From NCBI RefSeq assembly GCF_012940005.1, contig NZ_SPMX01000022.1, positions 1 through 64,000 of the forward strand: a stretch of DNA of 64,000 nucleotides. Direction: 5' to 3'. The notes beneath the pieces are model-generated. The model searched no databases. It saw only the letters and a program-made list of their open reading frames with translations, and was not told the origin of the DNA. This document shows, one piece after another, positions 7,946 through 52,898 of the stretch (its first letter is position 1; every line of letters begins with the position of its first letter). This DNA is from Candidatus Accumulibacter contiguus. GTDB lineage: Bacteria > Pseudomonadota > Gammaproteobacteria > Burkholderiales > Rhodocyclaceae. A program made the translations under genes and the position numbers.

Positions 7946-7956
7946 GGTTAAGCAAT

Positions 7957-32812: not shown

Positions 32813-33082
32813 ATGGCCCATGTCCCGCAAGCCCGGCTCTTTTCCTGGGAAGACGTTGAAAGCGGCTCCGACCTCGACCGCTGGTCGTTGGCGCTCGATT
32901 ACCTGCCGGACGACGCGCTGATGCAGGCCCTCGAAGCTCGTCGAGCGAAGGGCCGAGACGACTATATGCAAAAATCATCAAGCGCTGTTGAAAAAAGCCC
33001 TTCGACATTCCTGTGGCTGCCATCGCGGAACGACAGGGCCGGAATGTCGGAGAACTTGTCCGAGTGCGCTTGCTTGGGCTGA
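32813..33082 (+). pseudogene. N-terminal fragment of a transposase (IS1182/DDE type)
   Basis: ATG 32813 starts MAHVPQARLFSWEDVE and continues LDRWSLALDYLPDDALMQALEARRAKGRDDY to 32965. This is the N-terminal pattern of IS1182-like transposases (FSWEDVE, LEARRxxGRDDYP). After RDDY the frame departs from the family and stops at 33082 without any catalytic domain. The break is therefore at about 32965. It marks the left edge of the defence island. Assigned from remembered family pattern. Confidence 0.55.
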
Positions 33083-33105
33083 GAGACCTTCGGAACGGGG
33101 ATCCA

Positions 33106-33702
33106 ATGGGAGTCTACAATGCGGAAATCTCGGCAGGTTCCTTGATGCTGCCTGAAAGCCGCAGGATTGCTGGTCTGCTCCTGACCAGTCCTTCCCGGGA
33201 GCAGTGGTTCGCTGCCCTCAAGCTCGACAATCTGCTGCAGAAGAAGACCCCGGCAACGGCCCATCGCCAGGCGCAATTGATCCGCAAACGCCTGGAGACG
33301 CTGGAGGATGAAGGGTTGAAGCTGATTGCCACCGGTTCGCAGGAGGTCGCGACGCAGCTGTTGTTTGCCGCAGCCGTCAAGCACAGCCGCATCCTCGCCG
33401 ACTTCCTGCTTGACGTGTACGCTGGAAAACTTCGCCGGCTCGAGCAGAACCTGTCTCCCGCCAAAGACTGGGACGCCTTCCTCGCGGAATGTGTACAGCG
33501 CGATCCCGAGCTTGCCAATCTCAGCGCTTCGACCAAAGCAAAGGTGCTACAGGTCATCCTCCGCGTGCTCGCCGAAGGCCGCTATGTCGATTCCACCAAG
33601 ACATTGCGGCTGACCCCGCCGCACCTGCACCCCGGCGTCGTCAGCTACTTCAAGCGCCACGGAGAGACCGAAGTGCTTGCCATCATGGACATGACTCGAT
33701 GA
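33106..33702 (+). CDS. brxA: BREX protein BrxA (DUF1819)
   Basis: The product is 198 aa from ATG 33106; an upstream in-frame start would add 31 residues without family resemblance. YNAEISAGSLMLPESRRIAGLLL is the typical BrxA start, and TLRLTPPHLHPGVVSYFKRHG near the C-terminus is characteristic of DUF1819. BrxA is a small helical DNA-binding protein that is the first gene of type I BREX loci. Its stop overlaps the brxB start (ATGA), so both are translationally coupled. The length matches known BrxA proteins (about 200 aa). Confidence 0.9.
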   Translation: MGVYNAEISAGSLMLPESRRIAGLLLTSPSREQWFAALKLDNLLQKKTPATAHRQAQLIRKRLETLEDEGLKLIATGSQEVATQLLFAAAVKHSRILADFLLDVYAGKLRRLEQNLSPAKDWDAFLAECVQRDPELANLSASTKAKVLQVILRVLAEGRYVDSTKTLRLTPPHLHPGVVSYFKRHGETEVLAIMDMTR

Positions 33703-34277
33703 GTCACGGCCTCAACGAGCGGCTCAACCAGCTACTGCCCAAACTGACTTCGCCCGACGTGTTGGCGAATCACGGTTCCGGCGGCGAGATCGGCTTCTGG
33801 ATCTTCGACTACCCGCCCGAGGACGAGATGGCCGTGCGGACTTTCCTCCAGGAGGTCGTCCTGCCGGCACTGGCCAGGCATCAGCCGACGATCCGGGTCG
33901 CGGCGGTCAATCTCTTCGACCTCGTGATCGGCCTGCTGGAAGAGCGCAAGCTGCTCGACAAGGCCATCGAGATGCAACGCACGCAAGGTGACGCCAAGAC
34001 ACTTGAATCGCTGCGCCGTGTCCTCAAGGAAGACAGGCTCGCCGAACGGCTGGTGGCCCAGCACGACCTTGCCGAACTGGACCTGCTCATTCTCTGGAAC
34101 GTCGGCGCCGTGTATCCGATGCTGCGCACCCACACACTGCTCTCGGCGCTGCACGCCCACATGAAAGACAAGCCGCTGGTAATGTTCTATCCCGGACAGT
34201 ACGACGGCTATTCCTTACGCCTCTTCAGCCGGCTGAAAGACGACCACTATTACCGGGCCTTCCGTCTCGTTGCCTGA
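33699..34277 (+). CDS. brxB: BREX protein BrxB (DUF1788)
   Basis: The product is 192 aa from ATG 33699. GEIGFWIFDYPPEDEMAVR, AAVNLFDLVIGLLEER, LLILWNVGAVYPMLRTHTLLSALH and KPLVMFYPGQYDGYSLRLF are the conserved DUF1788 blocks. BrxB is required for BREX defence and is thought to join the complex with BrxC and PglZ, but its activity is unknown. It overlaps brxA by four bases; brxC follows after 25 bases. The gene order brxA-brxB-brxC is that of type I BREX. Confidence 0.92.
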   Translation: MSHGLNERLNQLLPKLTSPDVLANHGSGGEIGFWIFDYPPEDEMAVRTFLQEVVLPALARHQPTIRVAAVNLFDLVIGLLEERKLLDKAIEMQRTQGDAKTLESLRRVLKEDRLAERLVAQHDLAELDLLILWNVGAVYPMLRTHTLLSALHAHMKDKPLVMFYPGQYDGYSLRLFSRLKDDHYYRAFRLVA

Positions 34278-37300: not shown

Positions 37301-37917
37301 GCTTTGCCGACAACCGCGAAGTCTTGCAGAAGCTTCCGCCGATTGCCGCCTCACTCGCCGAACTGGAATCGATCCGCGACAACCCGGCACCTTACGGTCA
37401 GATCCCGCGTATCGAAGCGCTGATCAGGACGGTTGAGGCGGCCAATGAAGCGGCAGCGCAGGAGAAGCGCGAACGCGCCCTCCACTCGATCGACACCAGG
37501 ATCGCCGAGGTCGTGAAATCGCTCGATCAGCTTCAGGCGAGTGCGGATCTGCGCAACAGGGCACTGCTGCCCCTGCAGGAGCTGAAGACCCAAGTCGCCG
37601 GGCTGACCAGCATTCCCAGGATTCTGTACCTGCAGGGGCAAGCCGGCGATCTGCTCGACGAGGCGATGGTCGTGATCGAGAAGGCCAGCCAGAAGCACGC
37701 AACGGTGTTGAAGGATTCCGGAAGCATGACGACGCAAAAGGTCATGACCACCGGCGCCAGCACCGCAGCACCCAGACCTGCGAAGGTGATTCGGGCCGCA
37801 GACCTTTCACCGACGATCTATCTGGAAACCGCAGCCGAGGTCGAAAGCTACGTGGGCAAACTCAGGGCCGAGCTGCTCGCCGCCATCAAGGCCGGCCAGC
37901 GCGCCCGCATCCAGTAA
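34303..37917 (+). CDS. brxC: BREX ATPase BrxC (PglY-like)
   Basis: The product is 1204 aa from ATG 34303, where KIRDIFTKPIDRPINGVIKA begins as in other BrxC proteins; a start at 34270 is in frame but adds unrelated residues. Walker A is GSFGSGKSH at about residues 75-83 and FLVDEVGQFIG is the likely Walker B near residue 260. The C-terminal third contains a coiled-coil stretch (about 1040-1130). BrxC is an AAA+/STAND-like ATPase that is essential for both methylation and phage blocking. The frame is intact. Confidence 0.93.
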   Translation: MKIRDIFTKPIDRPINGVIKADQRDAESIWQELDEYVVTKQLTAYFRRFFDAFLAAADNPKDPVLSARMAVWVSGSFGSGKSHFIKILSYLLENIEAVNPKDGSTKRAAQFFDEHKIKDAMLLADVQRAVRGSSDVILFNIDAKADSKDERDVILQVFLRVFNEKLGYSGDAPHVAEMERHLVSKDAYDSFKAAFADRNGSTWNAERDAVDFLRDDVVYALARALKQSEDSAAAWFDHARDTYRINIEGLARLIRDYLASKPAGHRIVFLVDEVGQFIGNNTQLMLTLQTIAEQLGTLCQGRAWVIVTSQEDIDAAIGEANKARSQDFSKIQGRFHTRLSLASSNTDEVIGERLLAKTEAAHVALRDRFEQKGDIINNQLAFVGNSVTMKSYKDSAEFVACYPFAPYQFALLQKIFESIRKVGATGKHLSKGERSLLDAFQSAAILNAERGIDALVPLYDFYPSIESFIDTTAKRSIDEAPGNAALESYDVHLLKAMFLIRYIPDIVKPNIDNLATLCVNEIDADKLALKRRIQESLARLERQRLVSRNGDLWFFLTNEERDVAREIGHVAVSANEKWRLLSELIYDDILGGQTKVRHKDTKADYEFNRLLDGAPWKNASHPLSLEIATPLGDDYELLSEAKCILRSSESGGRALIRTAEGERLDIELTLYLQIEKYIDSPKAGIAAASLKRILSDRKDENRERRGRILAQLGELMVTGDCYALGQKPQIKAASPTTLLDELVNYLISNTYTKLPYLKVRQADPIAEIKAVLAVDTIGQQGLSLNGEQGNPLAIKELRDYLHLKASSERVLLSDVVDRFTGIPWGWKPEWEVVLLVARLFMAGEIKLMREGDDLDPKSAVDPLTKSVRFKQVSILKKKVPDAAALKRARDLYKEIFARIARDDADGLVADYRAALGDWQAELKGYVQTAAIRHHPGKDAIDTAVTRIGKQLAIRDAFEFIEAMLSAKSDWLDASDDIHDVVSFYKTQLPTWRKLLEALSSFADNREVLQKLPPIAASLAELESIRDNPAPYGQIPRIEALIRTVEAANEAAAQEKRERALHSIDTRIAEVVKSLDQLQASADLRNRALLPLQELKTQVAGLTSIPRILYLQGQAGDLLDEAMVVIEKASQKHATVLKDSGSMTTQKVMTTGASTAAPRPAKVIRAADLSPTIYLETAAEVESYVGKLRAELLAAIKAGQRARIQ

Positions 37918-37926
37918 GAACAAACC

Positions 37927-40900
37927 ATGAACAAAGCCAGACTCAAGACCTACGCACCGCAGGCGCGGCGGGACTTCGTCGCCGCTGTCGAGGCGCGCGC
38001 CCATCTCCTCGGGCTGTCCGGGAAGGGCGGCACGCTCGACATCGCGCCCGGCGAGCGGAAGGGCGACATCGCCGTCATCGCCGGTCAGGCATGGCCGGCG
38101 AAGGTGCACGAACAGCGCGAACGCCTGATCAGGCGGATGCAGAAGGACGGCTTTGCGCAGACCGTCGAGGCGGTCGCCTACACCTGGTTCAACCGCTTCG
38201 CCGCGCTGCGCTACATGGAGATCCACGACTATCTCGGCCACGGCCACCGCGTGCTGTCGAGCCGTGAAGGCGGCTTGCCGGAAATCATCGCCCACGCCAC
38301 CGAGCTGGCAGCAGGGTCGTCGGGCCTTCCCGGCTTGAATGCCGCCACTGTGGCGGAGATGAAACTGGCCGGCAACCAGGACGGCGAACTGTACCGCCTG
38401 CTGCTGGTCACCCAGTGCAACGCCTTGTCGAAAGCCATGCCCTTCCTGTTCGAGCGCATCGACGACGAATCCGAACTGCTGCTCCCCGGCAACCTGGAGC
38501 GCACCGACTCCGTCGTCGCCAAGCTGGTGGAAGCGATCCCCGACGAAGACTGGAACGAAGTCGAGGTGATCGGCTGGCTGTACCAGTTCTACATCAGCGA
38601 GAAGAAGGACGCGGTGATCGGCAAGGTGGTGAAGAGCGAGGACATCCCCGCCGCCACGCAGCTTTTCACGCCGAACTGGATCGTCCAGTACCTGGTGCAG
38701 AACAGCGTCGGCCGCCTGTGGCTGATGGCCAATCCCGCTTCAGGTCTCAAGAGCCAGTGGCCGTATTACATCGAGCCGGCCCAGCAAACGTCGGAAGTGC
38801 AGACGCAACTGGACGCTCTGATCAGGACGCGCATGGACGAAGATGGCGGCAGCCTGAACCCCGAAACCATCACCGTGCTCGATCCCGCCTGCGGTTCGGG
38901 CCACATCCTGGTCGAAGCCTACGCGGTGCTGAAAGGCATCTATCTGGAGCGCGGCTACCCGGCCCGCTCGATTCCGCGCCTGATCCTGGAGAAAAACCTC
39001 TACGGCCTCGACATCGACGACCGCGCGGCGCAACTGGCCGGCTTTGCGCTGCTGATGAAGGCACGGGCGGACGACCGGCGCCTGCTGGATGGCCCGATCA
39101 AGCTGAACGTGCTGTCCTTGCAGGAAAGCACCGGCATGGACCTCGACGAGTTCGCTGACCACATGAAGCCGCACGGCATCGACCGGACGGTGCTGGGTTC
39201 GCTTCTGGGCACCTTCGCCCATGCCAAGACCTTCGGTTCGCTGATTCAGATACCCAAGGTGCTGGAGGATGGTCTGGCCGGACTGGAAGATGGGATTGCC
39301 CAGGCCATCGAGAATGGGGATGTGTTTGCCAGGGCGGCGGCGCAGGATCTGGTGCCGCTGGTGCAGCAAGCGAAGATTCTGGCGATGAAATTCGATGCGG
39401 TGGTGGCGAATCCACCGTATATGGGCACAAAGGGGATGAATGCGCCATTGAAGTTCTTCGCAGAACTGCATCATCCAACAGCGAAAACCGATCTTTACGC
39501 CATGTTTATAGAGAGGGGAGGCGCATTATTGAAGGCGACTGGCTTCAACAGCATGGTTACGATGCAAGGTTGGATGTTTTCGTCCTCGTTCGATGAGTTT
39601 CGCGAAAGCATTCTTGCCACAAAAACCATAGTGACCGAGGCGCAGTTTGGACCGCGAGCGTTTGGAGAGATCTCTGGTGAGGTAGTACAGACAGCGGCCT
39701 TTTCCATATCTGCGAACCATTATGGCGCATACCGACCAACATTCTTCCGTCTTGTCGATGGCACTGAGGAAGACAAGAGGAAAGGACTGCTGTTGAGGCA
39801 GGGTCAATTTGATCGGTTTTCACAGCGCGATCTCACGCGCATCCCTGGTTCTCCTGTTGCCTACTGGACGAGTCGTCTATTGCTTAGCACGTTCAATGGA
39901 AAATCGATTGGTTCGATTGCTCGATTTTGCTCTGGAATGTCCACTGGAGACAACCCAAGGTTCCAACGTTTATGGCATGAAGTTTCTCTTTCCAAGATTA
40001 GTTTTGACTGCAAGGGAAACGATAAAACGGCACTGAAGCGCTGGTATCCCTGCAACAGTGGCGGGAACTTTAGGAAGTGGTATGGCAATAACGAGATTGT
40101 CGTTGACTGGCAAAACAATGGTGCCAGGATTAAGAGCCACAAAGGTTCTGCGATTCGAAATTCAGAAACGTATTTCAAGAAAGGTCTTACTTACTCAAAA
40201 ATAAGTTCCGGGCGCTTCGCCGCACGCTACAAGGAAGAAGGGTTTGTCTATGACGATACTGGCCGAGCGGTCGTATGCGAGGATCAGTCAGACATTTTTT
40301 CCATTGTTGGGAGTCTTATGCTCCAACATTGCACACGAATACCTCAAAGTTCTGGCTCCCTTGATGAGCTTCACCAGTACGGAACTAGCCCGAATTCCCT
40401 TAGTCTCCTTCGATAAAGACGCAATTGCTGCCACAGTCAAGAAATTGGTGGCAATAGCGAAAGCGGACTGGGATGAACATGAAACCTCATGGGAGTTTGG
40501 CGGGCACCCACTGCTTTTCAGTGCGGAGGAAACTCGTGCGCTAGAGCAGCGTTGGACTAAATACGATTACCGCACGACTTCGCGATTGCAGGAAATGAAG
40601 AGCCTAGAGGAGGAAAACAATCTCCTATTGAGTGAGACCTATCGCCTTTCCGATGAAATCGACCCTGCGGTTCCCGAAGACCAAATCACTCTCTCTCGCG
40701 CCGACCGGAAAACAGACTCCCAGCGCCTGATCTCCTACGCCATCGGCTGCATGATGGGCCGCTACAGTCTCGACGAACCCGGCCTGATCTACGCCCACGC
40801 GGGCAACGTCGGCTTCGATGCCACCCGTTACAAAACCTTCCCCGCCGACGCCGACGGTATCCTCCCGGTCACCGACGAACTCTGGTTCGAGGACGATGCC

Positions 40901-41461
40901 GCCAAGCGTTTCCGCGAATTCCTGCTCGCCGTTTGGTCAGCGTCGACTTTTGACGAAAACATGGCCTGGCTCGCCGAAAGCCTGGGCATCAAAGGCAATG
41001 AGACGCCGGACGAGACCATCCGCCGTTACCTAGCCTCCAGCTTCTTCAAGGATCACCTGCAAACCTACAAGAAGCGCCCGATCTACTGGCTGTTCAGCTC
41101 TGGCCGCCAGGGCGCCTTCCAGGCCCTGGTCTATCTGCATCGCTACCACGAGGGCACACTGGCCCGCCTGCGCGCCGAGTACGTCGTCCCGCTCACCGGC
41201 AAGATGCAGTCGCGCATCGAGATGCTGGAAAAGGACAGGGACGCTGCCACCTCCACCGCCGCCCGCAACAGGATCGCCAGGCAGATCGAAGCGCTGAAGA
41301 AGAAACACGTCGAACTGCTGGCCTACGACGAAAAGCTCCGTCACTACGCCGACATGCGCATCAGCATCGATCTGGACGACGGCGTGAAGGTGAACTACGG
41401 CAAGTTCGGGGATCTGCTGGATAGCGTGAAAATCGTCACTGGAGGTGCCTCAGATGATTAG
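37927..41461 (+). CDS. pglX: BREX adenine methyltransferase PglX, broken by one frameshift
   Basis: The gene encodes about 1177 aa if the single frameshift is repaired. Motif I is LDPACGSGHILVEAY near residue 317 and motif IV is ANPPYMGTKGM near residue 493, both typical of N6-adenine methyltransferases. After 40294 the frame changes: reading one T fewer in the T6 run 40295-40300 gives SDIFPLLGVLCSNIAHEYLKVL and restores homology to the end (VNYGKFGDLL). As written, translation stops at 40416 and a second frame covers 40244-41461. PglX marks host DNA and is needed for BREX immunity. The target-recognition part (about 39470-40690) is visibly less GC-rich than its flanks, suggesting exchange. 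Confidence 0.88.
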
Positions 41462-42658
41462 GTCTGTTCGTGTTATCAATTTCAAGTCGCTTGCTGCAGT
41501 GGAAATCCCACTCGGACATTTCAACTGTCTGGTGGGCATGAACGGTGCGGGCAAGAGCACGGTGTTGCAAGCCTTGGACTTTTTGTCACAGTTGATGCGT
41601 GGCGATGTGCAGGGCTGGCTTGACCAGCGAGGCTGGTCTGCGGCTGACCTCAATTGCAAGTTGCGCAAGGAACGCAACATCACGTTCAACGTGATGTTTT
41701 CAACCGCTGGGGGGGGGGCTGACTTGGATCGGCGTGTTGAACCGTTCTGATCTGCGTTGCTCACACGAGAGGGCATTCCTGAATGACGGAAATGGCACCA
41801 CCACCGTGCTGCGCTTGAGTGCTCAGACATTTGCATTGGGTGGCAAGGAGAGCCAAAACATCGCGTTTGAATACCAGGGATCCATCCTGTCGGCGTTGAA
41901 AGATTCGGAATTGCCAGCGCCTTTGCTGGCGTTCCGTGATGCGCTGCGTCGCGTCCGTTCGCTGGAGCTGTTGTCGCCTGAGAAATTACGCAAGAGCGCC
42001 CGAGTTAGCGAACACGACATTGGTGCAGGTGGCGAAAAGCTGTCGGCCTATCTGGACAACATCAAGGGTGAACAAAAAAATCAAGCTGGTGGAACTGCTG
42101 AAAAAGTTTTACCCAGCCTTGGTCGACTTCAAGATTACGTCGCAACGATCTGGCTGGAAGAAGTTGTCGGTGTTTGAGCAATTTGGCAGCCAAAAGCTGG
42201 AAACCGAAGCGCTCCACCTGAACGATGGTCTTCTGCGAATTCTGGCGGTACTGACACAAGCGGATGCAGATCATTCGCTGCTGCTGTTGGATGAGCTGGA
42301 AAACGGCATCAACCAGGAAATTGTGGAAACGCTGGTGGATACCTTGCTGCAAAGTCCGCAGCAATTGCTGGTCACCACCCATAGCCCGTTGTTGTTGAAC
42401 TATTTGCCCGATGACGTGGCGCGCAAAGCAGTGCAGTTTCTTTACAAAACCCCGCAAGGGGAAACAAGGTGTCGCAGTTTCTTTTCTATTCCGCGCGTGG
42501 CTGACAAGCTGAATGCCATGGGGCCAGGCGATGCCTTTGTTGATACCGATTTGCGCTTGCTTGCGCAGGAGTGTATTGATTTGGATGAGCGCAATGAAGC
42601 AATCGCTCGTGCTGAACAGCAGGCCGAATCAGACGCGATCGACCGCGGTGACGCATGA
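41454..42658 (+). CDS. AAA15/OLD-like ABC ATPase, two frameshifts
   Basis: ATG 41454 has GGAGG eight bases upstream and overlaps the pglX stop. MIRSVRVINFKSLAAVEI and LVGMNGAGKST (Walker A) are typical of AAA15/OLD-type ATPases; the C-terminal part has LHLNDGLLRILAVL (signature-like), LLLLDELENGI (Walker B) and VTTHSPLLL (switch His). Two breaks occur: one base too many in the G10 run 41709-41718 and one too many in the A7 run 42074-42080. Removing one base at each yields one protein of about 400 aa. With the following gene it forms an ATPase-effector pair resembling two-gene defence modules such as PARIS, though identity with a named system is not shown. Confidence 0.7.
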
Positions 42659-43401
42659 AGTTGTTGATCAGTGGAGAAGGCGCGAGCGACTTGGGCGCAT
42701 GCAACAACGCGCAAGGCCAGTGCTCTGATGGAGATTTCAACCGTGGGCCGATGGCCGTTTGGCTGGCGCGGTTGTGGGCGGCCAAGTTGGACTACAACGT
42801 GCTGGATACGCCAGAGGCGGTGGTTTATGTGACTGAAAAGGTGCTGGCACAAAAGGCTAAAGAATCAAGCACGCGCATGCAGCGGCAGCGAGGCAAAAAG
42901 CAAGCCGCTGAAACGGGTTTGTATTTCAGCAATGCCCGGCAGCTGGGGCTGATGGCGCAACAGTGGGCTGAAGATCACGCTGACACGGTGATGGCTATTT
43001 TGTTCCGCGATGCAGACGGCACGCGCAGTGCTCCGGGTCAGTTGTGGCAATGCAAATGGGACAGCATGGTGAATGGTTTTGCTTCCGTTGCTTTTGAGTT
43101 TGGTGTGCCTATGTTGCCCAAGCCGAAGTCAGAAGCGTGGCTGTTATGCGCCGGGAAAACGGCAAGGCATTCACACGCGGCATTGGAAGCCATTTCAGGA
43201 AACGACGACTCGCCCAATTCTGCCAAAAAGCAGTGGAACGCCTTCATGGGAAGCCCTCAGACTGCTGCCCAAGAAGCAAATTGGTGTGCCGAAAATCCAG
43301 GAGATTGGGTAAACATGCTCACCATGCCCAGTTTCAAAGCATTTTTCGACCGCTTTCATGCGGTGGCCAGTGCCATCCTTCGGCCTGGGAGGGGCGAGTG
43401 A
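42655..43401 (+). CDS. TOPRIM/DUF4276-like partner of the AAA15 ATPase
   Basis: The product is 248 aa, overlapping the ATPase stop by ATGA. LLISGEGASDLG at the N-terminus, AILFRDADGTR in the middle and PKPKSEAWLLCAG form an E...DxD...E pattern like that of DUF4276 and related TOPRIM-fold nuclease domains, which are common partners of AAA15 ATPases. It would be the effector, probably a nuclease triggered when the ATPase senses phage. I am confident in the pairing and moderately in the fold. The frame is intact, with lower GC than flanking BREX genes. Confidence 0.5.
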   Translation: MKLLISGEGASDLGACNNAQGQCSDGDFNRGPMAVWLARLWAAKLDYNVLDTPEAVVYVTEKVLAQKAKESSTRMQRQRGKKQAAETGLYFSNARQLGLMAQQWAEDHADTVMAILFRDADGTRSAPGQLWQCKWDSMVNGFASVAFEFGVPMLPKPKSEAWLLCAGKTARHSHAALEAISGNDDSPNSAKKQWNAFMGSPQTAAQEANWCAENPGDWVNMLTMPSFKAFFDRFHAVASAILRPGRGE

Positions 43402-44108
43402 TGAGCAATCCGGGTATCACAAGCTCCCTAGCTCTTTCGTCTGCTGCGCTGGCCGACTACCAGGAGTGGCTCAAGGCCATCAAGCAGCGCATCCATGCGA
43501 CACGGATGAAAGGCGCGTTGGCCGCCAATGGGGAGCTGATCTCCCTCTACTACGAAATCGGGGCGCAAATTGTTGATCGGGAATCCCACGCCCAATGGGG
43601 AAGCGGGTTCATCGACGCCTTCAGTCACGACTTGAGACAAGCCTTCCCGGAGATCGGCGGCTTTTCATCCAAGAACCTGCGGTATTGCCGCGCTTTCTTT
43701 CGCTTCTACTGCAATCCTGCAATTTGGCAACAGGCTGTTGCCAAATTACGCGATACCCCTTGGGCAGGGGCTGAAAGCCAGCTTTCTGTGTTGCTGAAGG
43801 AAATTCCCTGGGGCCACAACATCCTGATTTTTACCCAGTGCAGCAGCGTAGCCGAAGCCGGTTTTTATATCGATCAAACCCTTGAGCAAGGCTGGAGCCG
43901 TGATGTGCTGGCACTGCAACTCAAGTCAAAACTGTATGCCCGTACCGGCAAGGCGGTGACCACCTTTTCCCGCGCCTTGCCATTGCCTCAGTCCGACGCC
44001 GATCGGCGCATCACGCTCGATCTCGATGATGGAGTGAAGGTGAACTACGGCAAGTTCGGCGATCTGCTGGCTGAAGATAAAGCGGTGACCGAGGGGTGCT
44101 GGCGATGA
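43401..44108 (+). CDS. truncated DUF1016 protein fused to a PglX-like C-terminal tail
   Basis: From ATG 43401 (overlapping the previous stop by one base; GGGAGGGG upstream) the 235-aa product begins with a DUF1016 N-terminal domain: LADYQEWLKAIKQRIHATR, AALAANGELISLYYEIG, KNLRYCRAFFRFY, PWGHNILIF and YIDQTLEQGWSRDVLALQL. At about residue 200, after LPLPQSDAD, it switches to TLDLDDGVKVNYGKFGDLL, which is the C-terminus of PglX. The DUF1016 nuclease core (PD-(D/E)XK) is therefore missing. It is a recombination product; the residual domain may or may not bind DNA. Confidence 0.65.
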   Translation: MSNPGITSSLALSSAALADYQEWLKAIKQRIHATRMKGALAANGELISLYYEIGAQIVDRESHAQWGSGFIDAFSHDLRQAFPEIGGFSSKNLRYCRAFFRFYCNPAIWQQAVAKLRDTPWAGAESQLSVLLKEIPWGHNILIFTQCSSVAEAGFYIDQTLEQGWSRDVLALQLKSKLYARTGKAVTTFSRALPLPQSDADRRITLDLDDGVKVNYGKFGDLLAEDKAVTEGCWR

Positions 44109-44228
44109 CTGAGCGACGCCTCGTTGTTGGCTATTGGGCAGTTCGAGCAAATCTCCGAGGCCGCGCCGGAGGCCTTCGCCACGTTTTTGCTGGCCCTGGA
44201 AGCACACCATGAACAATCCACCCTTTGA
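44109..44228 (+). other. orphan coding-like tail after the chimeric DUF1016 gene
   Basis: In the same frame as the preceding gene, directly after its TGA, 39 codons read LSDASLLAIGQFEQISEAAPEAF and on to TGA 44226. The amphipathic helix pattern looks like real protein, probably the C-terminus of a gene whose 5' part has been lost. It overlaps the start of the next small gene. I cannot name a family. Confidence 0.3.
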
Positions 44229-44427
44229 GCCGGTAACCGATCCAGAAGTCTTTCGCCGCGCGGTGCAGATGCTCGCCATCGGTAATGTCGCTGCGCATCG
44301 TGCCCAGGTGCTCAACCAGTCGCTGGGTATCCCGAACCATTATTCAATTGGCGGTCGCATCGTCACTGATCGGGATCACGATGATGGCGGGCGCGCCGTC
44401 GAGGTGAAAGGTCCCCGGAATGCGTGA
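44209..44427 (+). CDS. small protein (72 aa), unknown
   Basis: ATG 44209 gives MNNPPFEPVTDPEVFRRAVQ, then AAHRAQVLNQSLGIPNHYSIGGRIVTD. The segment LGIPNxYSIxGRI resembles short proteins, frequent near mobile or toxin-antitoxin genes, that contain a helix followed by a beta-hairpin ending. A weak GGAAG precedes the start. The stop at 44427 overlaps the next gene by eight bases. Function unknown; its place upstream of an intact DUF1016 nuclease suggests it is part of that module. Confidence 0.45.
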   Translation: MNNPPFEPVTDPEVFRRAVQMLAIGNVAAHRAQVLNQSLGIPNHYSIGGRIVTDRDHDDGGRAVEVKGPRNA

Positions 44428-45466
44428 CGTCCTCGTGCTGCCAGTCGATTATGCCGCCTGGCTGACCGGTATCAAGCAGCACGTCCAGAACGTCCAGCAG
44501 AGGGCTGTGCTTGCCGTCAATCGCGAGCTGGTCTTGCTGTATTGGCAGATCGGTCGCGACATCCTGGAGCGCCAGCAAGCGCAGGGCTGGGGTGCGAAGG
44601 TTATCGATCAGCTTGCCAGGGACTTGACGGCGGCGTTTCCTGACATGAAGGGTTTCTCGCGTCGAAACCTGCTCTACATGCGCAGTTTCGCCGACGCGTG
44701 GCCAGAGCCGACATTTGTGCAAGAGGTACTTGCACAATTGCCCTGGTATCACCAGGTGACCCTGCTGGACAAGCTGAAGACGCGCTCAGACCGTGAATGG
44801 TATCTCGCCAAAGCCATCGAGCACGGCTGGTCGCGCAATGTGATGTGGCATCACATTTCCACAGCGCTGCACTTGCGATCCGGCAACGCAGTGACCAACT
44901 TCGAACAACGCTGGCCGCGGCCGGATTCCGAACTGGCGCAGCAAACCCTGAAGGATCCCTACCTCTTCGATTTTCTCGGCGTGTCCGAAGATGCGCTGGA
45001 ACGGGACATCGAGGGCGCGATGGTGCGCCATGTCACCAAGCTGCTGATGGAACTGGGTGAGGGCTTTGCCTTCGCCGGCCGCCAGGTGCATGTCGAGGTG
45101 GCGGAAGAGGATTTCTACATCGATCTGCTGTTCTACAATTACCGCCTGCACCGCTTCCTGGTGGTGGAGCTCAAGGGCGGCGCCTTCAAGCCGGAACACG
45201 CCGGGCAACTCAATTTCTACGTCACGCTGGTGGATGAGCGGCTGAAGAGTGCCGACGACCAGCCCACCATCGGCTTGCTGCTCTGCAAGCAGCAGCATCG
45301 CATCGTTGCCGAATACGCCCTGCGCGGCATGACGCAGCCCATTGGCATGGCGGAATACAAGCTGCAATTGCCGGATGATCTGGCGCGCTATCTCCCCAGC
45401 ATCGAGCAGATCGAGGCCGAGTTGCAGGACGAGGCAGCGTCGGATGACGAGGACGCGCCAGCATGA
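44420..45466 (+). CDS. DUF1016 (YhcG-family) PD-(D/E)XK nuclease
   Basis: The product is 348 aa and complete. The N-terminal DUF1016 domain has VNRELVLLYWQIGRDIL, GFSRRNLLYMRSFADAW and PWYHQVTLLDKL. The C-terminal nuclease core has EDFYIDLLFYNYRLHRFLVVELKGGAFKPEHAGQLNFY, with Asp, then Glu-x-Lys, of the PD-(D/E)XK fold. Such proteins are predicted DNA endonucleases found near restriction and defence genes. A second, truncated copy of this family lies just upstream. Its stop overlaps the ATG of a pglZ 5' copy, so it once directly preceded a pglZ gene. Confidence 0.85.
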   Translation: MRDVLVLPVDYAAWLTGIKQHVQNVQQRAVLAVNRELVLLYWQIGRDILERQQAQGWGAKVIDQLARDLTAAFPDMKGFSRRNLLYMRSFADAWPEPTFVQEVLAQLPWYHQVTLLDKLKTRSDREWYLAKAIEHGWSRNVMWHHISTALHLRSGNAVTNFEQRWPRPDSELAQQTLKDPYLFDFLGVSEDALERDIEGAMVRHVTKLLMELGEGFAFAGRQVHVEVAEEDFYIDLLFYNYRLHRFLVVELKGGAFKPEHAGQLNFYVTLVDERLKSADDQPTIGLLLCKQQHRIVAEYALRGMTQPIGMAEYKLQLPDDLARYLPSIEQIEAELQDEAASDDEDAPA

Positions 45467-45603
45467 GCCAGCAACGCATCACCGACGGGCTCACCGCCGC
45501 GTTCTCCAGTCATTCTATGGTCTTCTGGCACGATGCCGACGGCGAGTTCAGGGATCTGCTGGCGAAGGCGAAGGCTGTAAAAGGAGGGGCGAGTGATGCC
45601 TGA
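45463..45603 (+). pseudogene. duplicated 5' end of pglZ joined to a pglX-like 3' tail
   Basis: The 46-residue frame starts SQQRITDGLTAAFSSHS and continues MVFWHDADGEF, almost the same as the start of the real pglZ at 47196 (TQQRITEALTTAFSSHS). Nucleotide identity over the first 87 bases is high by eye. After GEF the sequence reads RDLLAKAKAVKGGASDA, which resembles the very end of PglX (KFGDLLDSVKIVTGGASDD). It is thus a scar in which a pglZ beginning has been joined to a pglX ending. It serves as the upstream border of the AlbA_2 gene. Confidence 0.7.
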
Positions 45604-47099
45604 GCATCCATCCAACACGCTGGAGGAACTGCTGACTCAACCCGAAGGCAAAACGCTTGAATTCAAGCGCGACCTCTCGTCGCCCAAGCCCTTGCTGAAA
45701 ACCCTGGTGGCCTTTGCCAATACTGCCGGGGGACGATTGTTTGTGGGCGTGACCGATGACCACCAGGTGCTTGGCGTGGCCAACCCTTTGGATGACGAAG
45801 AGCGCTTGTGTAGCCTGATTGCCGATCGCATCGCGCCGCGCCTGGTGCCCAATGTGGAAATGATCACCGTGGCGGGCAAGACCTTGCTGGTGGTCGAGGT
45901 GTTTGTCAGCGGCACGCGCCCGCATTGGCTCAAGGCCGAGGGGCCGGAGCATGGTGTCTATGTGCGACTGGGTTCGACCAGTCGGCAGGCGGATCAGGCG
46001 CTGATTGACGAACTGCGTCGCACAGCGGACGGTGTGGCCTTTGACGAGCTGCCCATGCCCGACCTGGGCTTGGACGATCTGGATTTGGTAGCAGCCAAGC
46101 GACTGTTTCAGGGCATCAATGATCTGGACGACCAGGCGCTGCGCACGCTCAGGCTGCTTACGCCGTATCAGGGCAGGTTGGTGCCGACCAAGGGCGCGGT
46201 GCTGTTGTTTGGCAAGCAGCGCACCCAGCACTTCTCCGATGCCTGGGTGCAGTGCGGTCGCTTCGTGGGCACGGACAAGGCGGCTATCTTTGACCATATC
46301 GACTTTCATGACCCGCTGCCGCAGGCGGTGGACAGCATCATGCTGTTCCTTAAAAAGCACGCCATGCGCGGCGCTGACTTTTCCGACACCCGGCGAAAAG
46401 ATGTTTGGAGCATTCCGCTCACCCTGCTGCGCGAGGCCGTGATCAATGCTCTGGTGCATGCCGACTACTCGCAGCGCGGCGCGCCGATTCGTGTTGCCTT
46501 TTTTTGATGACCGCATCGAAATCGAAAACCCCGGCATTCTGCTGGCTGGAATGACGGTGGAGGACATGCGCCAGGGCATCTCCAAGATCCGTAACCATGT
46601 GATCGCCCGCGTGTTCCGGGAACTGAACCTGATTGAGCAGTGGGGCAGCGGAGTGCGGCGAATTTTTAGTGAAGCGTTGTCGCAGGGATTGCCTGAACCT
46701 GAAATTATTGAAGTGGGCATGCGCATGCGCGTGGTGGTGCATCTGGCCGAAGCGATCCGCCCGGTACAAGTAACCGAACAAGTAACCGAACAAGTAACCG
46801 AACAAGTAACCGAACAAGTAACCGAACAAGTAACCGAACAAGTAACCGAACAAGTAGCACGCTTCCTTGAATGCCTGAAGCAAGGCCCGCTCAGCACGCG
46901 CGAGGCGATGGAGCGTTTGGCGTTGCAGCATCGACCGACGTTTTCTGCGAACTATCTACTGCCGGCGCTGAACGCAGGATTGGTTGAAATGACTCAGCCG
47001 GAATCACCAAGAAGTCCTACCCAGAAATACCGCCTGATTGCTCCACCGTACCGCAGCGGTCGAACGCGGGTTGAACCGGAGGGATGCGGTAATGAATGA
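45596..47099 (+). CDS. AlbA_2 (Schlafen-like) ATP-binding transcriptional-regulator-like protein, one frameshift
   Basis: ATG 45596 follows GGAGGGG. The N-terminal AlbA_2 domain has EGKTLEFKRDLSSPKPLLKTLVAFANTAGGRLFVGVTDD. The middle has RRTADGVAFDELPMPDLG. REAVINALVHADYSQRGAPIRVAFF leads into the HATPase-like fold. The frame breaks in the T7 run at 46499-46505; with six T it continues FFDDRIEIENPGILLAGM and reaches 47099, giving about 500 aa. A run of seven QVTE units sits near residue 390, followed by a winged-helix-like C-terminus (REAMERLALQHRPTFSANYLLPAL). COG2865 proteins are often found with defence and toxin genes; the role is undefined. Confidence 0.75.
46767..46850 (+). repeat. 12-bp tandem repeat coding QVTE
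   Basis: Seven perfect copies of CAAGTAACCGAA, followed by a partial copy. Each encodes Gln-Val-Thr-Glu, so copy-number change by slippage keeps the frame. It lies inside the AlbA_2 gene in the linker before its winged helix. Confidence 0.9.
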
Positions 47100-47195
47100 G
47101 GCTACTGACACCGATTTGTGCACGAGCCTGTTGCACAATCGCTCTCGTGTAGGCCCCGACGATTCCCGGCCAGGGCACTTTACGGCGGGAATCCA

Positions 47196-49807
47196 ATGAC
47201 CCAGCAACGCATCACCGAAGCACTGACCACCGCGTTCTCCAGCCATTCGATTGTCTTCTGGCACGATGCCGACGGCGAGTTCTCTTTCTCCGTCAGGAAC
47301 CTCTTGCCCGAGGGTATCGAACTGCTCTATCTCGACGACCTGCCGGCCTTGTCGATCAAGCTTCAACTGGAGCGCGCGACGCCTCGGGCCAGGTTCCTCC
47401 TCTACAGCGCCAAACCGGTTCCCGACCCAGCCAGCGACTGGCTGCTGGACATCCGGCTGCGCAGCAGGAGCTTCCACGCCGACAATGCGTCGATCCTGCT
47501 GGAGGATCTCGGCCTGAGCTCGCAGCAACTGCGAGCACACCTGAAAGAGCGCGCCAAGTTCCTCAAATCAAAGGATCGTGTCGACCGCCTCAAGCGCTGG
47601 GTTACGCCCAACGATGCCGCCGGGGATCTTGACCGCAAGATGATCGCGGTATTGGCAAGAGCCGAGCAACCGGAACTTTCCGGCATCCTGCTGCGGCTTT
47701 TCTCTGCCCTCGTCCAGGACGGCGTCGCCAATCTGGATGCCGAACCGAAGGCGTGGACCGACATCGTCGCCAATGACCTGATGGACTCGTTCTGGGTCCT
47801 GGTCGAACAGGAAATGGGCTATCGCGATGCCGCGCCGACGCTTCGGGATCTACTGTTCCGGATCCTGGTGACGGATTTTTCGCGGACCGTCAGCGGTTCC
47901 TGTCCTGCGCAGTTGTCGCATTTCATCCTCAACGACAAGGCACGCGCGGCGAATGCCTCGGTCTTTGTTGCCGGATGGCGGTCGCACATGCAGCACTTCG
48001 GCAGCTACGACGCCTTGTCCGGCAAGGTGGCTCGCGAACTGGGGCTGAGCGCGGTAATTGCCGGTCTGCCCGCTGAATCGTTGGCGGAATCGATGACTTT
48101 CGAGGAAGTCGAGCGGCGCATCATCCAGGACCTCAAGGACCGCATCATCGCCGGTGCCGGTGCCGACATGGACACCCTGCGCGAATTGATCGCCCGTCGT
48201 CGCGACGGCCATTGGGCCAACAAGCTGCTGGCGCACTCCAGCGCGACGACACGCGCCTTGGCGTCGTGTTACGACGCGCTGGAAGCGGCGACCAGCTTCT
48301 TCGAGCTGAAGGAGAAGTTCAACGCCGGATTCGGTTTCGCCAACGCCGAGGCCGGCTTGACGGCGTACCAGTCCGGGCTGTTCCGCTTCGATCAACTCTA
48401 CAGGCAGATCAACCATGCTGCCGATGGTGTCGAGCCGACGGGTTGGGCCTTGTTGCATGAGCTTCGCGAGCGCATCGAGAGCGCCTATTCGGGTTGGTTC
48501 GTGCCGCAGTTGGGATCTGCCTGGAGCAAGGTGCTGGAGGGCAGCGACGGGCTGCTATCACGCTGGAAGACCGGTGCCTGGGTCAATCAGCCGGACTTCT
48601 TCGAGCAGCACGTCATGGCGCATCTGGAGGCAGGAATCCGCCGCGTGTTCGTGGTGATCTCCGACGCGTTCCGCTATGAGGCGGCGGAAGAGCTGGTGCG
48701 CGAGATTAACGGCAAGAGCCGCTTCAAGGCGGCCCTGACAGCCATGCTCGGGGTGCTGCCGAGTTATACCGCGCTCGGCATGGCGTCGCTGTTGCCGCAC
48801 CATACGCTGGCCTACAGGAAGAACAGCAACCTCGATGTGATGGCCGACGATGCCGTGGTTTCCACGCTGGAGCAGCGTAGCGCACATCTCTCCAAATATC
48901 AGGCGTTGCCGTCAAGGCCGATGAACTGCTTGCCATGGGCAAGGACAAGGGCCGGGAATTTGTTCGCGACCACCGTGTAATCTACGTCTATCACGACAGG
49001 ATCGACCTGCTGGGCGACAAGCAAGGCTCGGAGGGGCAGACCTTCGACGCCGTGGCGCAGACGCTGACGGAACTCAATCAGCTCGCCACCTTCATCGTCA
49101 ACAGCCTCAATGGGTCGCTGGTACTGATCACGGCCGATCATGGCTTTCTCTACCAGGAATCGGCGCTCGACGACGCCGACAAGTCCACACTCGGCGACAA
49201 GCCGGAAGGCACGTTACGGGCGAAGAAGCGCTACCTGCTGGGGCAAGGAATCGGCCAGAACAGCAAGGCGTGGTGCGGCAATACGGCCGTCACGGCGGGG
49301 ACGACAGCGGGTGAGGGCAGCATGGATTTCTGGGTGCCGAAAGGGGCTGCCCGCTTTCACTTTGCCGGCGGCGCCCGCTTTGTGCATGGCAGCGCCATGC
49401 CGCAGGAGATCGTGATCCCGGTGATCACCCTGCGCGAAAGTGAAAACCAGTCGGCCAGGACGCGCGCGGTGGAATTCAGCCTGCTGGGCTCGTCGAACAA
49501 GGTGGTCACGAACAAGCAGCGCTTCGAATTCATCCAGACGGAACCGGTTTCGGAACGGGTATTGGCAAGGTCGGTGCTGGTCTCCCTGCGCGACGGGGAG
49601 ACGATGATCAGCGACGAACAGCCGGTGACCTTCGACAGCAGTTCCGGCCTGATGGACGAACGCAAGCGCTCGGTGATCCTGACCATCAGGTTCGGTCAAT
49701 ACGACAAGAGCAAAGACCATTTCCTGATTGCCCGTGACACCCAGACCAGGGTCGAAGTGATGCGGATTCCGCTCAAGGTGGATCTGGCCTTCGCCAACGA
49801 CTTCTAG
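47196..49807 (+). CDS. pglZ: BREX phosphatase-fold protein PglZ, broken by one frameshift
   Basis: From ATG 47196 the product would be about 870 aa. VFVVISDAFRYEAAEELV (about residue 490) and VLITADHGFLYQ are the metal-site motifs of the PglZ/alkaline-phosphatase superfamily. The frame ends early at 48980. At 48902-48903 the sequence CAGGCG reads correctly as CAGGGCG, giving SKYQGVAVKADELLAMGKDKG and restoring the rest to 49807. So one G is missing from a short G run. PglZ is essential for BREX defence and probably works with BrxB, BrxC and PglX. An extra copy of its 5' end is at 45463. Confidence 0.9.
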
Positions 49808-49815
49808 AACCGATC

Positions 49816-51858
49816 ATGACTGAACAACTCCCCGAGAACGACGCCGATCTCGATGCCCTGCTGAATCGGCATTTCGCCGGCAAGGTGGTGCGCAAGGATC
49901 TGACCAAGCTGATCAAGGAAGGGGCCAATGTTCCCGTCTATGTCCTCGAATACCTGCTCGGGATGTACTGCGCGTCCGATGATCAGGCGACCATCGACTC
50001 CGGTCTGGTCAATGTAAAGCGGATTCTCAGCGAGAACTATGTTCGGCCCGACGAAGCCGAGAAGGTCAAGTCGAAGATCCGCGAGAGCGGCAGTTACAAG
50101 GTCATCGACAAGGTGACGGTCAGGCTCAATGAAAAGCGCGATGCCTATGAGGCGCTGCTGTCCAATCTCGGGGTCAGGAATGCCGAGATTTCAGATACCT
50201 ACGTTCGCCAGTTCGAAAAGCTGCTGGTGGGCGGCATCTGGTGCATCGTGACGCTCCAGTATCGATTCGAGGAGAACCAGAAGGGCTCGCCATTCCAGGT
50301 CACCGATCTGAAACCGATCCAGATGCCCACCATGGACATGCCAGGGCTGTTCGAAGGGCGCAAGGCCTTCACGGAAGCACTCTGGATCGATGCGCTGATC
50401 CGCTCAACGGGCATGGAGCCCTCCTGCTTCAAGGATCGCGTGAAGTGGCATTTGCTGGCGCGGATGATTCCGCTGGTCGAGAACAATTACAACTTCTGCG
50501 AACTCGGCCCGCGCGGCACCGGCAAGAGCCACCTCTACAAGGAGATCAGCCCGAACAGCATTCTGGTTTCGGGTGGGCAGACCACGGTCGCCAACCTGTT
50601 CTACCACATGGCGGCGCGCAAGGTCGGCCTGGTCGGCCTGTGGGACGTGGTGGCCTTCGATGAGGTGGCCGGGATCAACTTCAAGGATCAGGACGGCGTC
50701 CAGATCATGAAGGACTTCATGGCCAGCGGATCATTCTCGCGGGGACGCGAGGCGATCAGCGCGAACGCGGCGATGGTCTTCGTCGGCAACCTCCCGCAAG
50801 GCCAGACGGTCGAGTCGCTGGTCAAGACCAGCCACCTGTTCAGACCCTTCCCCGAGGTGATGATCGACTCGGCGTTCTTTGACCGCTTCCACGCCTATGT
50901 GCCGGGCTGGGAGATCCCGAAAATGCGCCCGGAGTTTTTCACGAACCAGTACGGGCTGATCGTCGATTACCTGGCCGAGTACCTGCGCGAAATGCGCAAG
51001 TACACCTTCGCCGACGCCATCGACAAGTGGTTCAAGCTCGGCAACAACCTGAATCAGCGCGACACCATCGCCGTACGCCGGACGGTGTCGGGCCTGCTGA
51101 AGCTGATCTGTCCCGCCGGCGATTACCACAAGGAGATCGTGAGGAAGTGTCTTGAGTACGCGCTGGAAGTCCGCCGGCGCGTGAAGGAGCAGCTCAAGAA
51201 GATCGGCGGCATGGAGTTCTACGACGTGCACTTCTCCTACATCGACCTTGAGGATAGTCAGGAGCGTTTTGTTGCCGTTCCCGAACAATCGAGCGGCGCA
51301 CTGATTCCGGATGGCCGCCTCGCACCGGGAGCGCTGCACACGATCAGCATGGGAACGTCCGAAATGCCGGGGATCTACCGTATCGAAATTCAAACCATCG
51401 CCGGCGGTGGAAAAGTATCAGCGTCGGGTGCTGCACCACGCGAACCGGTGCGGGTTGCCTTCGACTATTTCAAGGCCAATTCCTCGCGCATCAGCGCATC
51501 GATCAAGCCAGGCGAACACGATTTCCACCTGCAGCTGCTCGAGTTGCAGAATGCGGGTGCGCCGCAGTCATTCACGCTTGCCAGCTTCATTGCCCTTTGC
51601 TCGGCAGCGCTGGGCCGCCCGGTTCAGTCGCAGATGGCAATCATGGGTGACATGAGCCTTGGCGGTACGGTGGTGCAGGTGCGCAATCTTGCCGAAAGCC
51701 TGCAGCTTGCGTTTGACGCCGGGGCGAAGAAGATACTGTTGCCAATGTCCAGTGTTGGCGATATTCCCAGCGTTCCGGGGGAACTGTTCGCCAAATTCCA
51801 GACCAGTTTCTATTCCGATCCGGTGGATGCGGTATTCAAGGCGATTGGGGTTGAGTGA
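49816..51858 (+). CDS. brxL: BREX Lon-like AAA+ protein BrxL
   Basis: The product is 680 aa and intact. The N-terminus has ALLNRHFAGKVVRKDLTKLIKEGANVP, the typical BrxL beginning. Walker A is FCELGPRGTGKSHLYKE, and VVAFDEVAG is Walker B. The C-terminal region (LGRPVQSQMAIMGDMSLGGTV, KKILLPMSSVGDIPSVP) is the Lon-protease-like domain. BrxL forms hexameric DNA-bound assemblies and is needed for phage exclusion but not for methylation. It starts eight bases after the pglZ stop and closes the type I operon. Confidence 0.94.
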   Translation: MTEQLPENDADLDALLNRHFAGKVVRKDLTKLIKEGANVPVYVLEYLLGMYCASDDQATIDSGLVNVKRILSENYVRPDEAEKVKSKIRESGSYKVIDKVTVRLNEKRDAYEALLSNLGVRNAEISDTYVRQFEKLLVGGIWCIVTLQYRFEENQKGSPFQVTDLKPIQMPTMDMPGLFEGRKAFTEALWIDALIRSTGMEPSCFKDRVKWHLLARMIPLVENNYNFCELGPRGTGKSHLYKEISPNSILVSGGQTTVANLFYHMAARKVGLVGLWDVVAFDEVAGINFKDQDGVQIMKDFMASGSFSRGREAISANAAMVFVGNLPQGQTVESLVKTSHLFRPFPEVMIDSAFFDRFHAYVPGWEIPKMRPEFFTNQYGLIVDYLAEYLREMRKYTFADAIDKWFKLGNNLNQRDTIAVRRTVSGLLKLICPAGDYHKEIVRKCLEYALEVRRRVKEQLKKIGGMEFYDVHFSYIDLEDSQERFVAVPEQSSGALIPDGRLAPGALHTISMGTSEMPGIYRIEIQTIAGGGKVSASGAAPREPVRVAFDYFKANSSRISASIKPGEHDFHLQLLELQNAGAPQSFTLASFIALCSAALGRPVQSQMAIMGDMSLGGTVVQVRNLAESLQLAFDAGAKKILLPMSSVGDIPSVPGELFAKFQTSFYSDPVDAVFKAIGVE

Positions 51859-51882
51859 GGTGAGTCTTGAGGAAGACGGTTC

Positions 51883-52087
51883 ATGAAAAGCGCTTTGTTC
51901 GTTGATTTCGACAACATTCCGGTCTGCGCCGCCTTGACCCGCCAGAACAGGGGCGAGGAGATGGATGCTCTCTGCCGAGAGCATGACGTTCCCTTCTTTG
52001 TCTGGCGGAGATCAAGCCGCTATTACTTGTCGAAGGGTGTCGGTCGCGGCGTATTGTCCGCGGACGGCAGCAGCAGGGGGATCTTGA
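51883..52087 (+). pseudogene. 5' fragment of a NYN-domain gene and unrelated sequence
   Basis: ATG 51883 opens MKSALFVDFDNI, the first strand and catalytic Asp of NYN (PIN-like) RNases. After about ten residues the family resemblance ends and a different sequence (EEMDALCREHDVPFFVWRRSS) continues without an identifiable domain. A perfect hairpin TGCTCTC-TGCC-GAGAGCA lies at 51967-51984. It appears to be a patchwork at the right border of the BREX island. Confidence 0.45.
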
Positions 52088-52141
52088 TCGATGCCGACGG
52101 CTACATCACCTACGTCGGCCGCGCCGACGACGTGTTCAAGG
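52088..52141 (+). repeat. 54-bp direct repeat, right copy (isolated)
   Basis: Exact copy of 32228-32281. Both flanks are unrelated to the acyl-CoA synthetase gene: the NYN-fragment patch on the left and a SleB-type gene on the right. The copy is thus an island of 54 bases, either an insertion scar or an assembly artefact. Confidence 0.95.
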
Positions 52142-52172
52142 ATGCGGGCGGGGCAGGGGACGGGCAGGGCCA

Positions 52173-52898
52173 TTGGCGACAGCCGCCGTGGCGGCGCTGG
52201 CCTGCGGATTGCTGGCGGCGCACGCGGCATTTGCCGAGGACCTGCCGTCGTGTCTGCGACGCGTGGCGGAGCAGGCACCACAGGAGGTGCTTCTCGCCGT
52301 CCGGCCGGGCGACGAGGAACTGCTGGCCCGGCTGGTGTACGCCGAGGCGCGGTCGACCGGCTTCGCCGGCGATCCGCGGGTGGCGCGCGGAATCGCCTGG
52401 GGCGTGATGAACCGGGTGCGTCTGGGCGAAGTGTCGGCAAGCGCGCGTCGGCGATACGGCAGCGGGGTCGCCGGGGTGATCTTCCAGCCGCAGCAGTTCA
52501 ACCCGGCGGTCTCGCGACGTTCGCCCTTCGCCGCCGGCTTTCTCTGCCCGCAGGACGCGGCGGCGTGGCGGCTCGCCTTCGCAGCGGCCGGCATGGCGCT
52601 GCGCGGACACGACGCCGAATCAATCGCTTGCGATGCGGCAGTTGACCGGCATCTGCCGCCGCGGCGGTCCGCGTACCGGCAACAGGCGACGGGCGAGCAC
52701 CATCTCAGCGGGGCACGGTGCCCCATGTGGCCGCTGCGGGCTGCGCGTCAGGGGCCTGCAGCGGCAGTTCGAGGACAAAGGTGGTTCCCGTGCCGGGTGT
52801 GCTGCGCGCCTCGATGCGGCCGCCGAGCACCCGGGTGGCGATGCTGTAGACGATGTGCAGGCCGAGGCCGCTGCCGCCTTGGCCGAGGCGGGTCGTGA
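52173..52898 (+). CDS. SleB-type cell-wall hydrolase, ends uncertain
   Basis: TTG 52173 opens a signal-peptide-like stretch (AALACGLLAAHAAFAEDLPS). LARLVYAEARSTGFAGDPRVARGIAWGVMNRVRLG and VIFQPQQFNPAVSR match the SleB/Hydrolase_2 family, which cleaves peptidoglycan (N-acetylmuramyl linkages) using the Glu of YAEAR. After about residue 145 (GMALRG) the expected Tyr/Phe-rich end is absent. The frame runs into the oppositely oriented sensor kinase gene, which begins to overlap at 52705, so the last 190 bases are not credible. The 5' side also abuts the foreign 54-bp repeat. The gene may be truncated at both ends. Confidence 0.55.
   Translation: MATAAVAALACGLLAAHAAFAEDLPSCLRRVAEQAPQEVLLAVRPGDEELLARLVYAEARSTGFAGDPRVARGIAWGVMNRVRLGEVSASARRRYGSGVAGVIFQPQQFNPAVSRRSPFAAGFLCPQDAAAWRLAFAAAGMALRGHDAESIACDAAVDRHLPPRRSAYRQQATGEHHLSGARCPMWPLRAARQGPAAAVRGQRWFPCRVCCAPRCGRRAPGWRCCRRCAGRGRCRLGRGGS

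Follow-up and report, generated by a model that had tools for sequence, protein, structure and literature searches.

The stretch of 64,000 nucleotides (nt) analysed here (the window), taken from contig NZ_SPMX01000022.1 of Candidatus Accumulibacter contiguus, contains a type I bacteriophage exclusion (BREX) operon in the order brxC, pglX, cargo, pglZ (type A) and brxL. The profiles NF033441, NF033452, TIGR02687 and TIGR02653/TIGR02688 all score above their cut-offs, the 3' piece of pglX on its own remaining below (460 of 500 bits). Upstream, the place of brxA and brxB is occupied by two open reading frames (ORFs; 33013-33702 and 33489-34277) with no match in NCBIfam, the only library scanned for these two ORFs. 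The BREX-1 methyltransferase gene pglX (37927-41461) and the real pglZ (47196-49807; TIGR02687) lie, like everything between them, on the plus strand. Their interval (41462-47195) carries cargo genes and, in addition, two extra pglX 3' ends (tails 2 and 3) and one extra pglZ 5' end (a head), which we call scars. The nearest BREX relatives found (PglZ identity 85-87%) are the Candidatus Accumulibacter loci L026, L027, L069 and L071, with L025, on a short contig, at 88% (L numbers denote surveyed loci and F numbers cargo families).

Copies of gene ends between pglX and pglZ

The real pglX 3' end (41346-41461) contains GGAGGT and the ATG of the next gene (41454) within its last codons. A first module follows, consisting of a broken AAA15-type ATPase gene in several frames (PDC-M25A; 41454-42658), its partner PDC-M25B (42655-43401; E 9e-85) and the N-terminal part of a DUF1016 gene (PDC-S02; 43401-43997). 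The latter is cut at 43997, where it is fused in frame to scar 1, a pglX tail copy (43996-44108). Behind it lie the remnant of an F10/F9 module (44105-44427), with a small ORF at 44209-44427 and a kinase-like F10 that is longer in L026, L054 and L056, and an intact DUF1016/YhcG nuclease gene (PDC-S02; PF06250, PF17761; 44420-45466). Scar 2 consists of the pglZ head copy (45463-45549) and a pglX tail copy (45539-45603), and is followed by a Schlafen/AlbA_2 gene (PF04326; 45596-47099). pglX (37927-40416 and 40244-41461, both matched by NF033452), the ATPase gene, the AlbA_2 gene (two frames) and pglZ (two frames) are each spread across more than one frame, which may reflect either decay or sequencing error. 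The DUF1016 fragment also holds a 27-bp near-perfect palindrome (43721-43747), and the AlbA_2 gene a 12-bp tandem repeat array (46766-46856) with related units in L044, L063 and L071. A tract of ten G in the ATPase gene (41709-41718) was considered as a conserved phase-variation site and rejected, as it is not conserved in the AAA genes of L039, L053 and L063.

The copies exceed chance similarity. Self-comparison of the window aligned the pglZ head copy with 47196-47282 over 87 nt (90%, E 3e-26) and a pglX tail copy at 43987-44070 with 41336-41420 (84%, E 1.5e-17), while the TIGR02687 profile independently, if weakly, found 45472-45564 (E 9.5e-4). With 60 shuffled queries each, the head scored 78/87 against a best shuffle of 41, tail 2 76/103 against 51 and tail 3 42/66 against 34. 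Tail 3 is the weakest copy in the window and falls below the self-BLAST list; the same head/tail junction occurs at the same place in L026 and L071. The extra pglX and pglZ ends reported by a first-pass annotation, made from the sequence alone, are thus real, and similarity between them exceeds chance when they are aligned. They lie roughly where they had been placed, but the limits of the two tails had to be corrected to 43996-44108 and 45539-45603. That annotation had also counted three tails and two heads, the real ends included, and this count stands; tail 3 continues the pglZ head copy in frame, 45463-45603 being a single chimeric frame of 46 codons in which the pglZ head runs straight into the pglX tail. 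At this junction (ACGGCrAGTTC) both genes share 11 nt, 10 of them identical, in the same frame. The stop of the intact DUF1016 gene does overlap the ATG of the pglZ copy, as ATGA, as had been noticed.

Comparison with the Accumulibacter relatives bears on the history of these scars. L026 and L071 carry the chimeric pglZ-pglX junction of the window, followed by AlbA_2 and then pglZ, and we therefore take the junction event to predate the split of the three lineages. Tail 2 and the following 16 nt align in L026 with a genuine pglX end and the gene behind it, so that scar 1 probably used to be a genuine pglX end; the contig of L026 begins inside that pglX, of which at least 380 residues of the 3' part are visible where the window has scar 1. 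The stretch behind tail 2 includes the remnant of a longer module that is present in L026, and the DUF1016 gene that is cut in the window is full-length in L069, directly after pglX (90% over 611 nt). In L027 (Accumulibacter meliphilus) a shortened brxC runs into a pglX tail (7838-8013), the remaining pglX being missing.

Distribution, spacing and frame of the scars

A profile scan provided 77 loci from genome contigs (the best 80 of 139 matches) and 3 from viral contigs. Of these 80 loci (L025-L104) 64 were measurable, giving 65 with the window; in the other 16 the pglX end or the pglZ start was not measurable. Regions retrieved again and judged to be already in the locus set (10/12 and 4/4) entered the counts only once. 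The distance between the pglX stop and the pglZ start ranges from -20 to 9614 nt and is below 100 nt in 11 loci, leaving 54 intervals that measure 100 nt or more, that of the window among them (165 kb in total). Profiles covering the 60 C-terminal residues of PglX and the 45 N-terminal residues of PglZ, built without the window and applied in six frames with a cut-off of 12 bits, gave 13 tail and 3 head matches in 12 loci, all on the plus (operon) strand. There were none on the minus strand of the 54 intervals and none in 152 kb of control DNA (53 stretches starting 1.9 kb past the pglZ start). The chimeric tails of the window and L026, which lie outside these 13 matches, bring the tail scars to 15. 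A comparison across type I BREX loci, which the first-pass annotation had proposed, thus reveals variable cargo in the interval and the same kind of scars in 12 of 54 intervals. When 736 long flank ORFs were compared with the intervals, 14 of the 16 own-locus matches were to the last residues of PglX or the first of PglZ and the remaining two were alternate-frame readings of the same copies; no pieces of other flanking genes were found.

A scan with shorter profiles (>14 bits) gave 18 matches in the intervals, none on the other strand and one in the control, in the pglZ stretch of L060, which we take as chance. It alone detected a further tail end of 27 nt in L061, as well as the L026 tail half. 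Two 27-mers resembling the pglX end lie at the extreme C-terminus of a DUF1016 gene (L035:3927-3953) and of an AlbA_2 gene (L043:9644-9670); they may be tail ends that the cargo genes took up, or may be due to chance.

The interval is a hotspot of embedded defence cargo, with variable genes at a fixed site that is empty in 11 of 65 loci. Its 165 ORFs fall into 51 clusters, in 39 different orders among the 54 intervals. Members that were scanned include PDC-M25A/B, HEC-01B, PDC-M38A/B (DUF3226), PDC-S02 (DUF1016), PARIS-like AriA/AriB (F4/F5), Shedu SduA, Fic PDC-S24, TmtA, RT_UG5-nitrilase, Schlafen/AlbA_2 and a zeta-toxin-like kinase. Cargo is exchanged between distant BREX backbones: among 497 shared-family locus-pair comparisons, cargo identity exceeded PglZ identity by at least 10 points in 132 (by at least 20 in 63), and PglZ identity exceeded cargo identity by at least 10 points in 115. 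Although families evolve at different rates, this spread suggests that the cargo does not share the history of the backbone. Scarred intervals are longer than unscarred ones (median 5117 versus 1890 nt; Mann-Whitney p 1.1e-5, or 2.6e-5 without the window), and 10 of 12 scarred versus 9 of 42 unscarred intervals exceed 3.5 kb (Fisher p 1.7e-4, for a split chosen post hoc).

The tail copies extend to the 3' end of pglX (matches end at profile position 56-60 of 60, except in L091, where the core is missing), and they begin at varying points, about 20 to 90 codons before that end, L039-1 reaching further with a gap. In 37 of the 54 intervals a cargo ORF of at least 70 codons starts inside the final 20 nt of pglX, and 44 of 54 pglX ends contain one of seven G-rich motifs, which we chose ourselves and give without a background control. 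The signals for starting the first cargo gene thus appear to reside in the pglX end. Several families lie at matching distances (in nt) behind an intact pglX and behind a scar. F4 starts at -3 in five loci and behind scar L042-1; F6 at +27 in L048 and L050 (+28 in L049, -13 in L062) and behind scar L034; F0/F8 at -3 in L063 and behind scar L042-2; F0/F2 at -7 in L027, L042, L053 and L094 and behind scar L063; and F1 at -10 in L039 and L082 and behind scar L091.

The reading frame follows a pattern that is, as far as we are aware, reported here for the first time. The stop of the preceding gene could be placed for 11 of the 15 scars and overlaps a start codon as NTGA in all 11. From this start the frame is open and in phase through the tail in 9 of 11 (binomial p 0.0014 against 1/3); the two out-of-phase scars, L039-2 and L048, are those with the next gene 60 and 61 nt past the tail. 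The in-phase scars L039-1 and L091 appear, from our reading of the translations, to have frame-keeping internal deletions. The pattern looks as if it had been selected for translational coupling.

Two observations bear on the order and origin of the insertions. The sister loci L060 and L061 (85-91% wherever the backbone aligns) have a scar and the modules F11-F4-F5 in common at 90%, and between pglX and that scar nothing aligns at the DNA level, a pattern that fits entry of new cargo adjoining pglX. In L091, from another genus, a scar with a different junction opens with a pglZ head that is identical to that of L031 at 40 of 45 positions and to its own pglZ at 15 (best of 200 shuffles 25), and this head therefore came from another lineage.

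Probable capture at the pglX end and other explanations

It was already proposed in the first-pass annotation that cargo had accreted stepwise at an insertion hotspot. The longer scarred intervals and the sister loci support this view, and the observation extends to a minority of related loci. Going further, we consider it on balance probable that accessory defence genes are captured in this interval of the BREX operon without an integrase, by one-sided homology, and that in-frame joins survive. Incoming DNA, we infer, would come from another BREX locus and comprise a pglX end, cargo and sometimes a pglZ start. Its pglX end would pair with the resident pglX by homology, and its far side would be joined by short or no homology within the last 20-90 codons of the resident gene. 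The product would read complete pglX, new cargo, left-over pglX tail and old cargo, so that the newest cargo would adjoin pglX and each scar would mark a former first position. Surviving scars would be those with a frame that runs from a start overlapping the prior stop, through the tail, to a stop overlapping the start of the next gene; we propose that they survive because the tail carries the ribosome-binding site and start codon of that gene. Both the mechanism and the selection on frame seem likely, as far as the junctions and frames allow them to be deduced. In homology-facilitated illegitimate recombination one side is homologous, the other is joined by microhomology and some resident DNA is lost. 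This fits the anatomy of the scars and is a candidate mechanism here, the two junctions of the window sharing 11 nt and about 2 nt.

Scanning of the interval ORFs of the window with Pfam and PADLOC (46446-47099 with PADLOC only; attC-type sites were not searched) revealed no recombinase, and the cargo boundaries in the window are the protein-coding ends of pglX and pglZ. No inverted pair of at least 25 nt frames the interval within 36000-54000, shorter repeats and target duplications lying outside that search. A perfect 54-bp direct repeat (32228-32281 and 52088-52141) brackets the entire BREX operon; its left copy lies inside a long ORF that, in our reading, resembles an acyl-CoA synthetase gene, while a short ORF behind brxL contains the right copy. 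Alignment of the window with four Accumulibacter relatives stops at 51937-51939. A further direct repeat, 70% identical, occurs far from BREX (2438-2649 and 14017-14228).

Several results weigh against capture by one-sided homology. The notion of recombination on gene ends holds only in part: the pglZ/pglX junction shares 11 nt, but the DUF1016/pglX junction of scar 1 shares only about 2 nt. The loci yielded no donor-recipient or before/after pair so close that a single event could be read from it, and the unaligned inserts of L060 and L061 each encode a repeat protein of family F21, so that they are not wholly unrelated. Loci with a shared first cargo family show an excess in pglX-tail identity of 1.5 points, and 181 of 2000 permutations were as high; a locus-wide link between tail allele and first cargo was accordingly rejected as not significant, and a long tail therefore does not generally travel with the cargo. 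The spacing does not fit everywhere: scar L039-2 lies +60 before F4, F11 starts at -19 in the scars of L060 and L061 versus -10 in L029, and called ORF starts vary within a family behind intact pglX (F0, -19 to +311). The frame test rests on 11 scars, four of the 15 being unscored as the preceding gene is cut or shifted (L061, L071, L026 and scar 1 of the window), and the L026 chimera is itself frame-shifted. Tail matches are also absent from several multi-gene intervals (L056, 8.0 kb; L043, 7.1 kb). Finally, none of 13 further intervals, some up to 7 kb, carries copies, and we therefore rejected the idea that every type I BREX locus has scars. These 13 include close relatives (L127, L133) and are not a clean test outside the clade; they comprise 9 testable intervals from a batch of 18 loci, 7 of which have intervals below 100 nt, together with those of L022, L123, L133 and L139. 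The routine used recovered the copies in all 7 scar loci to which it was applied, that of L091 weakly (E 0.003).

The most serious alternative is replacement of pglX itself, in which the whole specificity gene is exchanged, the cargo hitch-hikes and the tail of the old pglX persists as a relic of the change in specificity. The target-recognition region of the window's pglX (approximately 39135-40727) hardly aligns with L069 and L071, except for one 84-nt stretch in L071, while its flanks align at 83-84%, and L026 has a pglX 3' part at the position of scar 1. The region differs, however, also from that of L069, which has no scar, so that switches and scars need not coincide, and we regard pglX replacement as unlikely. 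Alternatively, a single locus may have undergone tandem duplication or unequal crossing-over, from a pglZ start to a pglX end; this would likewise leave scars, as passive remains, with cargo that later diverged or was exchanged through homologous recombination. A pglZ-head/pglX-tail junction with 11 shared nt is its expected product, and the own pglX tail is best or second-best by score for L039-2, both L042 copies, L048, L071 and L075 (up to 94%). On the other hand, tail 2 of the window and the copies of L034, L060, L061 and L091 score higher against other loci, their own tails ranking 26, 10, 22, 17 and 48 by score, although L060 matches its own tail at 94% over a shorter stretch of 68 nt. 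The head copy of L091 is foreign, matching L031 far better than its own pglZ, and the cargo on either side of scar 2 is unrelated. Duplication within the locus thus seems rather improbable.

That the copies are functional, as PglX-tail mini-proteins or as cargo tails acting as docking or regulatory peptides, we hold to be very improbable. In favour of it, the frames are mostly open, the tail sequence shows conservation and, as far as the available text of the sources goes, the C-terminal region of type I PglX is conserved and a proposed partner contact (PMC11842806; PMC11341690). The mini-frames, however, mostly differ from one another at their head ends, the open frames measure 37 to 93 codons, the tail core is missing in L091, and no copy is present in 42 of 54 intervals. 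An assembly artefact from repeated sequence is hardly credible, since the copies differ by 10-33% and the same junction is present in two other genomes, even though the assembly (5.02 Mb) is in 167 contigs and several genes are split here.

Relation to known systems and implications

Cargo between pglX and pglZ, nucleases inside BREX and embedding between hsdS and hsdR are, according to the consulted portions of the literature, already in print. In the Salmonella StySA BREX, an ATPase/DUF4435 pair between pglX and pglZ is described, from a comparison with E. coli HS, as a later acquisition (PMC9009780). These are two genes at exactly the site studied here, where PARIS-like pairs (F4/F5) are also among the cargo, but they form one insert and not a series, and the part of that article available to us does not mention copies of the pglX tail or pglZ head. 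Auxiliary nucleases within or beside BREX operons, i.e., ATPase-TOPRIM pairs, PD-(D/E)XK, Shedu, Schlafen and HEPN proteins, belong to the same cargo classes (PMC12839542), although this catalogue of neighbours gives, in the sections at hand, no insertion mechanism or scars. "Guilt-by-embedding" of defence genes in other immune systems has been put forward by Payne et al. (2024, as cited in PMC12255303). In the excerpted text of PMC12255303, DarTG2 lies between hsdS and hsdR and the authors call this interval a potential recombination hotspot; here too cargo is nested in a host defence operon, but a scar series, an insertion order or a frame rule does not occur in that text. A search of titles and abstract beginnings, with bioRxiv preprints and most subscription papers outside its scope, returned no report of pglX-tail or pglZ-head copies.

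Defence genes nested inside other defence systems are common, and scars may offer a readable record of their insertion. The scars described here may also point to a simple mechanism without a dedicated recombinase. By extension, the BREX operons of this clade may be self-recording, integrase-free cassette arrays, in which the pglX 3' end would serve captured defence genes as homology arm, ribosome-binding site and start codon at once, the scars would be frame-keeping relay peptides (a pglX tail, in some cases with a pglZ head) that give the order of acquisition, and selection on frame would account for which joins persist; we advance this broader view tentatively, as a possibility that falls a little short of probable. 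The order of acquisition and its link to changes in BREX specificity may become testable from sequence. As the scars flag the borders of modules, they could also aid the discovery of new defence genes.

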